Shown here piece after piece: positions 4,402 to 11,768 of a DNA stretch of 37,068 nt. Below the pieces are notes generated by a model. That model made no database searches and had not been told where the DNA came from. It saw only the letters and a list, made by a program, of their open reading frames with translations. Numbering within the stretch: position 1 is the stretch's first letter; each line of letters starts with the position of its first letter. The stretch is from a virus. Made by a program: the position numbers and the translations under genes. The DNA lies in the IMG/VR virus record IMGVR_UViG_3300045051_000462, positions 1 to 37,068 of that record, one strand, 5' to 3'.

Positions 4402-4628
4402 TAGGAGTTTATATCTGAAGATGCTTGAGCTATTTTAGCTTGCTTCAATTGACCGCTTTTAATGCCAGCTTTAACAAAATGCTCCCTGCCTTTAGTTTCT
4501 AGGTTTTTTAGTCCGCCCTTTCTACCAATTTCTTTAAAGAACTCTTGACCGTGTTTTTTAGCAGTTGATAAACCACCCCGACGGCCAGCCTCTCTCACAC
4601 TCATTTCTTTAATTGATTTGTCGTTCAT
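4398..4628 (-). CDS. KGG-repeat stress-type protein
   Basis: The frame is open further upstream, but the ATG at 4628 follows GAGAGGACAG and gives a 76-residue protein. It contains repeats of the KGG/Con-10 type: AGRRGGLSTAKKHGQEFF, then IGRKGGLKNLETKGREHF, then a shorter AGIKSGQ. These glycine-lysine repeats occur in small stress-induced bacterial proteins (family PF10685 by resemblance), with unknown biochemical role. It is fully hydrophilic and cytoplasmic, and overlaps the end of the upstream gene by 20 bases. Confidence 0.7.
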   Translation of the reverse strand: MNDKSIKEMSVREAGRRGGLSTAKKHGQEFFKEIGRKGGLKNLETKGREHFVKAGIKSGQLKQAKIAQASSDINSY

Positions 4629-8220: not shown

Positions 8221-8296
8221 GGTCTAGTTCCTGAGTCGAACAGGAAAAGGGTTATGAATTTAAAGGCCTCCCGCTTTACCGTTAAGCTAACTGGGC
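8221..8296 (-). tRNA. Degenerate tRNA-like element
   Basis: The 5' part has a perfect D arm (GCTT-AACGGTAA-AAGC type) and the 3' part a perfect five-pair T arm with TTCGACT loop. The acceptor (GCCCAGT with ACTAGAC) pairs at five of seven positions. The anticodon arm is abnormal: 27 bases separate the D and T arms instead of about 23, with no good five-pair stem. GGG and CCC could flank a TTCATAA loop (Met/Ile type) if about 12 bases are inserted. It is best read as a decayed or tRNA-mimicking element. Confidence 0.4.
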
Positions 8297-8660: not shown

Positions 8661-8843
8661 TTATTCCCTGGGTAGGGTGGTTAAATAAATTGTGGTTCTT
8701 ATTTTCTCACATCCGTAACAAACCTGAGTTAGCGCATCATGGAAAGTGCTATAAATTGCTTGTTGAATGTGCCTTCCCTCGCAATCTTGGATATGCTTTC
8801 TTACCTCTTCCATTGTTTTTATATGTTCATACTCAAAATTCAT
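8661..8843 (-). CDS. Small zinc-binding-like protein, 60 aa
   Basis: The ATG overlaps the stop of the Ala-repeat gene (ATGA) behind GAGGAAATTAA. Two Cys near the end (VCYGCEKIR) and one in the middle with His (DCEGRHIQ) could bind one metal. Otherwise helical. No family recognised. Confidence 0.6.
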   Translation of the reverse strand: MNFEYEHIKTMEEVRKHIQDCEGRHIQQAIYSTFHDALTQVCYGCEKIRTTIYLTTLPRE

Positions 8844-9538
8844 TTAATTTCCTCAAGATTTTTAATCCGATTAACCATAAATTTGTCAATCTTTATAATT
8901 AGAGCCGCATCAGCCGCCGCACGAGCCGCCGCATAAGCCGCCGCATAAGCCGCACCAGCCGCCGCACGAGCCGCATCAGCCGCCGCACGAGCCGCATAAG
9001 CCGCCGCATAAGCCGCACCAGCCGCCGCACGAGCCGCATCAGCCGCCGCACGAGCCGCATCAGCCGCACGAGCCGCACGAGCCGCCGCACCAGCCGCCGC
9101 ACGAGCCGCATCAGCCGCCGCCATATTTTTCTTATTAGGATTCTTTACATATTCAATTGCTGCTTCAATTGCTTTTCTGGGTCGATCATCATTGGGGTAT
9201 TTTTTCTCATATATATCTATAACCAACTGGGCTGCATAGATAGCTAATTCAACCGAATCTTTTTTCTGCCATTTCCAAGCCTTAACAATTCTCATGTCAG
9301 ACCATACAGATTTATCATTATCATCTAAATGTTCACCTTTAACTTCAACCTTAGCTAATATTTCACCCTGGACATAACCAAAAGCCTCATACACCTTGTC
9401 TGAACAATGAAACCCGTTGCGGCATAAATCCAATTCACCATCTTCTTTTTTCCACTCGCCAAGTTTCCAAGTACAATCACCATTGGCTGATTTTATTTTT
9501 TTACCATCTAATTTTAGAAATTTATATTTAGTTTTCAT
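8840..9538 (-). CDS. Protein with alanine-repeat tail, 232 aa
   Basis: Residues 1-135 form a globular domain with WKLGEWKKEDGELDLCRNGF and HCSDKVYEAFG, a pattern (G-E-W, L-C-x-x-G-F-H) found in phage and bacterial proteins of the DUF7666 type. Residues 138-212 are almost only Ala, Arg, Asp, Gly and Tyr in short blocks such as ARAAADAARAAAGAAYAAA, followed by a basic C-terminus. Alanine-repeat tails of this kind occur on phage proteins of unknown role. The tail is encoded by a GC-rich tandem repeat that contrasts with the surrounding DNA and probably varies in copy number. Confidence 0.7.
   Translation of the reverse strand: MKTKYKFLKLDGKKIKSANGDCTWKLGEWKKEDGELDLCRNGFHCSDKVYEAFGYVQGEILAKVEVKGEHLDDNDKSVWSDMRIVKAWKWQKKDSVELAIYAAQLVIDIYEKKYPNDDRPRKAIEAAIEYVKNPNKKNMAAADAARAAAGAAARAARAADAARAAADAARAAAGAAYAAAYAARAAADAARAAAGAAYAAAYAAARAAADAALIIKIDKFMVNRIKNLEEIK
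8901..9122 (-). repeat. GC-rich tandem repeat coding an alanine tail
   Basis: About 220 bases of GCC, GCA, CGA, TCA and TAA triplets (plus-strand view) make up a repeat array. A 63-bp unit coding 21 residues (ARAAADAARAAAGAAYAAAYA) occurs twice in tandem, flanked by partial copies. It is far more GC-rich than the neighbouring sequence. Long ORFs in the other frames across it are repeat artefacts. Confidence 0.85.
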
Positions 9539-10083: not shown

Positions 10084-10145
10084 ATACCTTAACGATCCCC
10101 AATCACATTATAAGCCTATTCACCATTCTTCACCACCGAACATAC

Positions 10146-10231
10146 AAAAAACCTCCCCTTAAAGCTTCTGCTATCCGGATTGAATGGAAGCGGAAACAGG
10201 GAGGTTTTTTGTCGATCTCAACCTACAAGTA
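10146..10231 (-). ncRNA. Candidate 86-nt RNA unit with terminator
   Basis: A promoter at 10239-10267 would start RNA near 10231. The 3' end is a 12-bp perfect inverted repeat, AAAAAACCTCCC with GGGAGGTTTTTT (10146-10157 and 10199-10210), enclosing an inner GCTTC/GAAGC hairpin. It has a T run on both strands, so it can terminate in both directions. The 5' end carries TTCTACTTGTAGG. No ORF is present. It may be a stable small RNA or simply a terminator with a promoter in front. Confidence 0.5.
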
Positions 10232-10602: not shown

Positions 10603-10603
10603 G

Positions 10604-10675
10604 CTGATTGGGTAGGACTCGAACCTATAACATCCGCCTTAACAGGGCGGCGCTCTACCATTGAGCTACCAATCA
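10604..10675 (-). tRNA. tRNA-Asn (anticodon GTT)
   Basis: A full cloverleaf is visible. The acceptor stem pairs TGATTGG with CCAATCA and has a G discriminator, as expected for tRNA-Asn. The D arm reads TAGCTCAATGGTAGAGC. The anticodon stem pairs CCGCC with GGCGG around loop CTGTTAA (GTT). The T arm has loop TTCGAGT with one A-C mismatch at its base. CCA is not encoded. It lies 3 bases from the large inverted-repeat RNA region. Confidence 0.92.
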
Positions 10676-10678
10676 ATA

Positions 10679-11062
10679 TCTTTAACATCAAATCGCGGGG
10701 TAGGGGAGTAAGGTTTTTAGTTTATGTAAGAAGATCAAGAAAAAAATGTATATCAATTTCATGACCTGGTAACTAGCTTGGAGCCTACCAATTTAGTTTT
10801 GAGCGTGTAGTCGAAGTTAATAGATAGGCTAAGTCTATACTGACGCTTTAAAAGCGCATCTGTGCCACAGATTACATTGACTCATTAATTCAACAATCTA
10901 TCCATTCCCTCACTAGGCTCCTACCCCTCGATTTAATGTTAAAGAACGTGTTCACCCTTACCGCTAGAAAAACGGATAACTAGCGGGATACTTACTTAAG
11001 GTATCAATTGCCCAAGCGCCGGATGTTCCTGCCTAGGTTCATCCAGCGGTAAAGGTGAACAC
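10679..11062 (-). ncRNA. Candidate large structured RNA upstream of tRNA-Asn
   Basis: Two long inverted repeats lie one after the other. Helix I pairs 11046-11062 with 10948-10964 (17 bp). Helix II pairs 10920-10945 with 10679-10704 (26 bp, one mismatch) and encloses about 215 nt with further hairpins (ATCTG-TGGCA-CAGAT, CGCTT-TTA-AAGCG) and an 8-bp pair TAGGCTCC/GGAGCCTA. One variant position in each helix is a G-U pair only if the RNA is read from the minus strand, so that is the likely sense. CTAGCGG (10980-10986) could displace part of helix I. No protein gene fits 10679-10995. No known RNA family is identified. Confidence 0.55.
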
Positions 11063-11214
11063 TGCTGCTCTGCTATCTCTAAATATTCTAAATACTTATT
11101 TTTCCAGGCTGTGTAGCTAAACTTTCTTTGACCATTCTTAAAATAATAACCTTCAAGAAGATGTTTTTGGAAGTAGTGGTTGGTTTGTTCACAGGCAAGT
11201 GAATAAGGATCCAT
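10996..11214 (-). CDS. Hypothetical protein, 72 aa
   Basis: Aromatic and helical (HYFQKHLLEGYYFKNGQRKF and KNKYLEYLEIAEQQ), with a Pro-rich C-terminus (SPLPLDEPRQEHPALG) encoded by DNA that also forms one arm of a long RNA helix. It starts one base after the stop of the 69-aa gene, so the two are an operon behind the leader at 11426-11510. No family recognised. Confidence 0.6.
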   Translation of the reverse strand: MDPYSLACEQTNHYFQKHLLEGYYFKNGQRKFSYTAWKNKYLEYLEIAEQQCSPLPLDEPRQEHPALGQLIP

Positions 11215-11215
11215 A

Positions 11216-11425
11216 TTACAAAGCTTTTTCTAACTTAATAATTCTACTTTTGATCTGATCTAGGATTTGGGGAAGGTAAAGATTACCGTTATACAAACTC
11301 TTTAGAAAGTTAATTTCTTCTATTCTTGACTTAAATATTGCGTCACTAAACATTGAATACTTAGTAGCCATAGCATTGGCAAGTTTTGATTCTTGCCTGT
11401 GTTTTAAGTTAAACGTAGATTGCAC
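11216..11425 (-). CDS. Hypothetical protein, 69 aa, leader-controlled
   Basis: The start is GTG at 11425. The ribosome site AAAGGA lies 7 bases upstream, with the T run of a terminator hairpin as the spacer, so the site is buried when the hairpin forms. The protein is basic and helical (NLKHRQESKLANAMATKYSM, ILDQIKSRIIKLEKAL), probably a small coiled coil. It is the first gene of a two-gene unit. Function unknown. Confidence 0.65.
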   Translation of the reverse strand: MQSTFNLKHRQESKLANAMATKYSMFSDAIFKSRIEEINFLKSLYNGNLYLPQILDQIKSRIIKLEKAL

Positions 11426-11512
11426 AAAAAAATCCTTTCATTGAGCTGAGCAAGGTTGGTCAGACCTTTGAGCAAGTCTCCTTGCTCGCCTCAATAAAAG
11501 GATTTGTCTGAC
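11426..11512 (-). promoter_or_regulatory. Leader with competing terminator and anti-terminator folds
   Basis: Minus-strand RNA starting near 11510 can fold in two exclusive ways. The terminator pairs 11480-11505 with 11430-11455 in three blocks (7, 6 and 9 bp) and ends in seven T residues; its 3' arm contains the AAAGGA ribosome site of the next gene. The alternative pairs GTCAGAC (11512-11506) and CCTTT (11501-11497) with AAAGG-TCTGAC (11469-11459) and forms an inner GAGCAAG-GAGA-CTTGCTC hairpin with a GNRA-type loop. It takes sequence away from both terminator arms. This is the design of an attenuator or riboswitch. It could also be a stand-alone 85-nt RNA. Confidence 0.7.
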
Positions 11513-11516
11513 ACAT

Positions 11517-11543
11517 ATTATAGCTTGCTCACCTATAAGTCAA
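11517..11543 (-). promoter_or_regulatory. Promoter of the leader-controlled operon
   Basis: TATAAT (11522-11517) is preceded at 15 bp by TTGACT (11543-11538). A further TTGACA in the sequence CCTATTGACA lies near 11571. An imperfect inverted repeat, CTCACCTAT (11529-11536 region) and ATAGGTAAG (11567-11574 region), sits between this promoter and a divergent plus-strand TATAAT, so one regulator could control both. Confidence 0.6.
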
Positions 11544-11573: not shown

Positions 11574-11768
11574 GTGTATAATGAATGGATGAGTATGGAT
11601 TACAAAAACCTTCACACCAATAAAAAAAACAATTCTGAGGATGATTTGATTATGCTTAAATTGTTGTTTATTTTCTATTTGTTTGTAATGGCTATGGGGA
11701 TGTTACTGCCAATCTTTAGGCTTGCATGGCAACTAATCACTGGTATACTTGGCGGGATCTTTAGATAG
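11574..11768 (+). CDS. Small membrane protein, plus strand
   Basis: This is the only likely plus-strand phage protein gene. The frame can start at GTG 11574 (64 aa) or ATG 11589 (59 aa). A TATAAT at 11577-11582 would place the transcript start close to the second, so the mRNA may be nearly leaderless; its -35 is weak. A polar N-terminus is followed by a long hydrophobic region (KLLFIFYLFVMAMGMLLPIF and on to LITGILGGIF), predicting one or two membrane helices. It is divergent from the leader-controlled operon. Function unknown; a holin-like or signalling peptide is possible. Confidence 0.5.
   Translation: MYNEWMSMDYKNLHTNKKNNSEDDLIMLKLLFIFYLFVMAMGMLLPIFRLAWQLITGILGGIFR

Follow-up and report, generated by a model that had tools for sequence, protein, structure and literature searches.

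Positions 11,426 to 11,512 of the 37,068-nt stretch of viral DNA analyzed here (the window) were described by a first-pass annotation as an attenuator or riboswitch-like leader preceding a two-gene operon. This description raises the question of whether so short an RNA can adopt two alternative states and, if so, what kind of signal would choose between them. The window is the record of a tailed phage (IMG/VR) with terminase, major head protein, tail, and lysis genes, and, like the other virus records analyzed, it may be a fragment. Its head protein has 90 relatives among viral contigs and six matches in genomes. Because three of these six lie in assemblies named Paceibacterota, Woesebacteria, and Moraniibacteriota, the host is likely to belong to the Patescibacteria; the remaining matches lie in one unassigned bacterium and in two assemblies named Acidobacteriaceae and Thermoanaerobaculia. 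Nearly all larger frames of the window are on the minus strand, and the leader is located between the late block (12.4 to 36.7 kb) with an HNH gene and a block at 0.6 to 11.4 kb, which we took as the early genes.

The elements of the leader and its surroundings are collected in Table 1, in which promoter assignments are consensus matches. The consensus −10 reported just upstream of the leader is indeed there, as a perfect TATAAT located 4 nt from seg1, with a −35 that is imperfect at either of its two possible spacings. This arrangement fits a leader that would make up the whole 5′ UTR. Both ORFs of the annotated operon exist (69 and 72 aa, 1 nt apart), making a two-gene operon plausible from their layout, but sequence relatives of either ORF were not found among viral contigs, nor were any of the 69-aa ORF among 38 related records.

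Table 1. Elements of the window leader, its promoter, and the downstream frames
Feature	Position	Strand	Remark
Leader	11512→11423	minus	
−35-like TTGACT	11538..11543	minus	17 nt to TAATAT, 15 nt to TATAAT
x0 TGAGCAAG	11524..11531	minus	Extra copy of terminator 5′-arm strand, in promoter spacer (−35/−10)
−10 box TATAAT	11517..11522	minus	Perfect; read directly from sequence
seg1 GTCAGAC	11506..11512	minus	5′ strand of antiterminator helix P1
Lower terminator 5′ arm	11490..11505	minus	Contains anti-SD; partly in P2 in antiterminator
Strand x GAGCAAG	11481..11487	minus	P3 5′ strand (antiterminator) or upper 5′ arm (terminator)
GAGA loop	11477..11480	minus	Loop of hairpin P3
Strand x′ CTTGCTC	11470..11476	minus	P3 3′ strand
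seg3 GTCTGAC	11459..11465	minus	In terminator loop; 3′ strand of P1
Terminator 3′ arm	11430..11455	minus	Strand x″ + SD
SD-like AAAGGA	11433..11438	minus	Inside terminator stem
T7 tract	11426..11432	minus	Doubles as SD-to-start spacer
69-aa ORF	11216..11425	minus	GTG start (11425) directly after T7
72-aa ORF	10996..11214	minus	Start 1 nt past stop of first ORF

Folding with RNA default parameters at 37 °C bore out the central claim of the annotation, that two exclusive folds use the same bases: both are present on the minus strand, and each is far better than shuffles. The first is the predicted long antiterminator with its GAGA-capped hairpin. Specifically, nt 1 to 54 folded alone form a three-way junction of −22.0 kcal/mol (z −4.5; 0 of 200 shuffles as good), composed of P1 (GUCAGAC/GUCUGAC, 7 bp), P2 (4 bp), and P3 (GAGCAAG-GAGA-CUUGCUC). 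The second, obtained with the full leader, is a terminator in which 11505–11490 and strand x (11487–11481) pair with 11455–11430, with a minimum free energy of −43.4 kcal/mol (z −7.0; again 0 of 200 shuffles as good). The terminator is interrupted, as annotated, in this case by a 2 × 2 internal loop, and the stem contains rather more than the 22 pairs proposed (16 + 8, plus 6 further inner pairs). It ends in the seven T residues described and does bury the ribosome site, as AAAGGA lies in its 3′ arm and is paired with a probability of about 1.0. A simple terminator scan of the window did not return this terminator because that scan permits loops of 3 to 8 nt only.

On progressive folding, the junction flipped to the hairpin at ∼70 to 72 nt of emerged RNA. 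The terminator of the window leader (−40.7 kcal/mol) is 14 kcal/mol more stable than the P1-forced state (−26.7 kcal/mol), and thus the RNA would end terminated unless the switch is kinetic or assisted. An H-type pseudoknot, in which P1 and the terminator form together, was rejected on inferred geometry, as seg1 abuts the 5′ arm with a linker of 0 to 7 nt in most of the leaders described below; the 18-nt linker of one of them (G027) might permit P1 with the full stem.

These folds suggest how the leader may operate. The transcript would start at or just before seg1. As the RNA emerges, seg1 would pair with seg3 to form P1, and the 5′ arm of the future terminator would fold on itself as P2 and P3. 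This antiterminator is predicted to block the terminator as polymerase crosses the T7 tract, leaving AAAGGA open to serve as SD for the GTG start. If P1 and P3 were prevented or opened, the 5′ arm would instead pair with the 3′ arm and transcription would stop after about 87 nt; any transcript slipping past the terminator would have its SD buried. We regard control at the level of transcription attenuation as quite probable. That an attenuator heading the early operon of the phage, working as proposed, is the whole explanation also seems probable to us.

Three leaders could be aligned, those of the window (G000), G003, and G045. In all three, x″ is the partner of strand x in the terminator and x′ its partner in the antiterminator. 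The x:x″ pairs are kept at 8 of 8 positions, four of them through changes on both sides; every varying position of x (4 of 4) is compensated in x″, and the same four are compensated in x′. The x:x″ cells were paired in 100% of cases, versus 21 to 52% with slid partners. Complementarity of one strand to two partners is required by a bistable switch and not by a plain terminator, and the computation indicates that selection keeps both folds.

Each of the three alignable leaders also carries an extra copy of x upstream of seg1, corresponding to x0 of the window (shuffle p 0.017, 0.0225, and 0.037). These copies could be a second input, or an operator or RNA input. They would also suit a switch governed by transcript origin, in which RNA from the leader promoter lacks x0 and reads through, while late-gene RNA includes x0, which pairs with x′ and breaks P3, so that the terminator forms and the SD is buried. 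The position of several leaders between late and early genes agrees with such a scheme. However, the best-scoring promoter of G003 lies upstream of x0, which would place x0 in every transcript, and the copies belong to one subclade only. We consider control by transcript origin doubtful.

Searches with the leader DNA found no homologs in phages, plasmids, or relatives, with chance matches of 13 to 20 nt only, and the exact P3 motif had no match in viral contigs. The design of the leader comprises a segment immediately upstream that is complementary to the terminator loop, a self-folding 5′ arm, a 3′ arm in most cases rich in SD-like purines, 5 to 8 T residues, and, in many leaders, a start codon right behind these. 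By a structure scan, nine phages of the capsid clade, the window included, have this design (G000, G003, G025, G026, G027, G028, G042, G045, and G048), the eight relatives of the window having the same design in unrelated sequence. One such leader, L094, is in a syntenic place, after an HNH gene. The prefix folds beat shuffles in all nine leaders (z −2.3 to −4.7), as did the full-leader folds (z −5.1 to −8.1). A further candidate, L123 (G024), has two very stable hairpins at 11402–11501 and 11597–11702, whose folding energies are −40.0 and −53.6 kcal/mol and whose T runs are near each other; it was set aside, as its arrangement differs from that of the window leader.

Five further phages have the design (L264, L287, L321, L458, and L487). 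None of them had a match in the head-protein alignment, and hence the design extends beyond a single capsid clade. The pattern SD-T7-ATG occurs at no fewer than 120 sites in viral contigs; in at least 55 of the matches listed, 8 or more outer pairs form a stem abutting the T run, indicating that an SD-fused terminator is common in phages, and the full design was seen in L264, L287, and L321 in addition to the already known G028. L458 and L487 were found by a 5′-arm pattern that did not include seg1, and they have perfect seg1/seg3 matches of 8 and 9 bp. The seg1/seg3 helices of L321 and L458 differ from that of L487 by a C-G to A-U exchange, and the L287 leader, which is homologous to these three, has an entirely different seg1/seg3 pair. 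By eye, L321 also contains, at about 4460–4500 upstream of seg1, a second segment, CTGGTTA, complementary to TAACCAG in a different part of the terminator loop, and L458 is similar.

The pairing of upstream segment and terminator loop exceeds expectation. Of the 60 strong terminator-like hairpins that these records contain, the upstream (seg1) match reaches 7 nt or more in 14 (3.6 expected) and 8 nt or more in 7, located at 6 distinct sites (0.94 expected). Control genomes totaling 279 kb contained five strong terminator-like hairpins, one with a match, which was an internal repeat. A loose scan of all terminator-like sites gave no excess of upstream–loop complementarity, the signal being found in strong, long-loop terminators only. 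Cognate seg1/loop complementarity averaged 8.6 nt compared to 5.1 nt for noncognate pairs, with a permutation p of about 5e-5, an effect that is overstated because most members were chosen partly for their seg1 match; bias is smaller in the 60-hairpin count and in the L458/L487 pair.

The members are not uniform. SD, T run, and start codon are joined in G000, G027, G028, G045, L264, L287, L321, and L458. G025, G026, G042, and G048 have no long ORF beginning right at the T run, and thus not every member buries its SD. P3 with its loop is missing from several leaders or takes another form there. Together, the leaders look like a family of real, undescribed two-way RNA switches, and we call them a phage attenuator family conserved in architecture, not in sequence. 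The attenuator half of the original description is strongly supported by exclusive folds that beat shuffles, by an architecture recurring in unrelated sequence across 13 other phages, and by the compensation that maintains the complementarity of x to both partners.

The riboswitch-like half is not supported, as neither an aptamer-like conserved core nor an Rfam family at gathering score was found. The matches to Rfam were subthreshold only, mainly to miRNA hairpin models. A three-way junction in the 5′ part followed by a terminator is what a ligand-binding riboswitch could look like, but the junction nucleotides are not conserved among the leaders and the Rfam families fall below the gathering score, and we judge a riboswitch very improbable. 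Attenuation by a translating ribosome is disfavored because the leaders have no common leader ORF; an SD-preceded start is absent in 8 of the 14. The leaders resemble terminator/antiterminator attenuators and riboswitches in general in having exclusive folds that share bases, with the SD inside the terminator, but differ in lacking a conserved aptamer, a leader peptide, and any recognized site for a protein.

Alternatively, the product of the locus could be a free small RNA that ends at a strong terminator of its own and does not target the frame downstream. The promoter and strong terminator are about 87 nt apart, seg1 is mostly unpaired in the terminated RNA, and G025 and G026 have no long frame at the T run, all of which such an RNA would accommodate. 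It would, however, leave unexplained the kept complementarity of seg1/seg3 and of x/x′, as well as the junction of SD, T run, and start codon in eight leaders, and we find it improbable.

The genes that follow the leaders offer a view of what an attenuator of this kind would control. Early or replication genes lie downstream of several of them. G027 has a HTH_36 protein of replication-initiator type directly after T7GTG, and L287 has a CHC2/Toprim primase upstream of its leader and a HTH_36 protein, also of replication-initiator type, second downstream. Neither this protein nor the L321 leader has a near relative among named phages. The 248-aa frame downstream in G042 is replication-protein-like by eye only, Pfam giving a weak DUF1287 match, and the frame downstream in G045 is HNH-like, also by eye. 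Elsewhere in G025, a 219-aa protein (L089 8352–9011, minus strand) combines HTH_3 (repressor type) with a Sigma-70 region 4 domain.

A terminator that forms or not by alternative pairing in the leader and, in some members, immediately precedes a replication-type gene also recalls the rep attenuators of pT181 and pIP501, in which binding of an antisense RNA makes the terminator form before the start of the replication gene (PMC3753616). In an attenuator of this kind, an opposite-strand RNA would bind the leader and favor the terminator; a terminator immediately ahead of the start of a replication-type gene fits that logic. Those systems require the opposite-strand RNA, whereas here no antisense promoter was seen and the partner of the antiterminator is in the terminator loop. 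Indeed, sense promoters are enriched upstream of the leaders and antisense ones are not; by a consensus scan only, the best antisense promoter score averaged 7.9 across the 14 leaders versus 8.2 in shuffles. The lack of an antisense promoter signal counts against pT181-like control, and we think it improbable.

Protein-responsive attenuators are common in bacteria. Here, a phage or host protein could bind P1, P2, or P3, for example the GNRA-capped P3, and fix one state; GNRA loops cap P3 in G000 and G003, and AAGG-N-ACTT...CAAAG is common to G000, G003, and G045. A motif common to all 14 leaders was not found, however, and P3 or its loop is not constant across them, so that control by a protein is possible rather than favored.

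For the attenuator that we propose, the signal may instead be an RNA that pairs in trans with seg1 or seg3, for example the terminated leader RNA itself. In seven leaders computed, seg1 is mostly and seg3 partly unpaired in the terminated RNA, and the product could therefore act in trans. Such pairing would give negative feedback on early or replication genes, as with the CI RNA of phage P4. The P4 CI RNA acts with Rho-dependent termination, and specificity differs between P4-like elements. This RNA is a short untranslated leader RNA with internal complementary segments, and premature termination turns off the replication genes (PMC4825925). The leaders described here are like it in having internal complementary segments and in leading an early or replication operon, the genes of the window itself having no assigned function. 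They differ in that CI RNA, which pairs with seqA and seqC, is processed from a longer transcript, whereas the present leaders have a single intrinsic terminator that is fused to the SD. P4 CI RNA is also an immunity element, while for the window-type leaders action in trans is only proposed and no integrase was found. Specifically, the 14 phage records, which are possibly fragments, gave no Tyr or Ser integrase, weakening a role in lysogenic immunity; feedback on replication would not need integration. The C4 antisense RNA of P1/P7, in which short complementary segments underlie heteroimmunity and act around the ribosome site (PMC12197685), is alike as a phage RNA with short complementary segments. 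It acts on translation of the ant mRNA, whereas the terminator is central in these leaders, and homology is absent.

RNA–RNA control resembling that of P4 CI RNA appears to be the best-fitting candidate signal, but as a trigger an RNA acting in trans is still tentative. A bound protein is about as likely as an RNA, and a small-molecule aptamer is unlikely. More speculatively still, the terminated leader RNAs may act back on nascent leaders through exchangeable seg1/seg3 segments, forming an RNA-only family, including phages of Patescibacteria, in which every phage would set a specificity of its own, as RNA heteroimmunity or copy control, and neither a conserved sequence nor a protein would take part. 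If seg1/seg3 does set specificity in trans, RNA-only phage control would be much more widespread than the examples of P4 and P1 imply, and the leader parts would serve directly as orthogonal attenuators. Searches based on sequence or on Rfam would miss a regulatory RNA family whose members share architecture rather than sequence, and these putative attenuators stand at the start of early or replication operons in phages, several of which come from a group without culture and with almost no known gene regulation.

Several other features were observed in these records. Short terminators with an SD as the 3′ arm (CTCCTTTGTGAA...CACAAAGGAGTTTTTTTATG) are present in L298, L308, L313, L316, L323, L327, L337, L348, L355, L359, L364, L367, L369, and L376, and many of these are preceded by repeated TTTAAA-like motifs about 10 to 12 bp apart. 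In the window, a 64-aa frame with a hydrophobic stretch (11574–11768, plus strand) is divergent from the leader and may encode a small membrane protein. A weak tRNA-like match just over the Rfam threshold (8221–8296, minus strand) is absent from the ARAGORN output, and a tRNA-Asn(GTT) gene is located at 10603–10675 (minus strand). A hairpin at 10145–10208 with T runs on both sides could be a bidirectional terminator. Finally, the 232-aa protein at 8840–9538 (minus strand) has DUF7666 and weak Imm5-like similarity, and a frame overlapping it on the same strand reads as an Arg/Leu/Met repeat.
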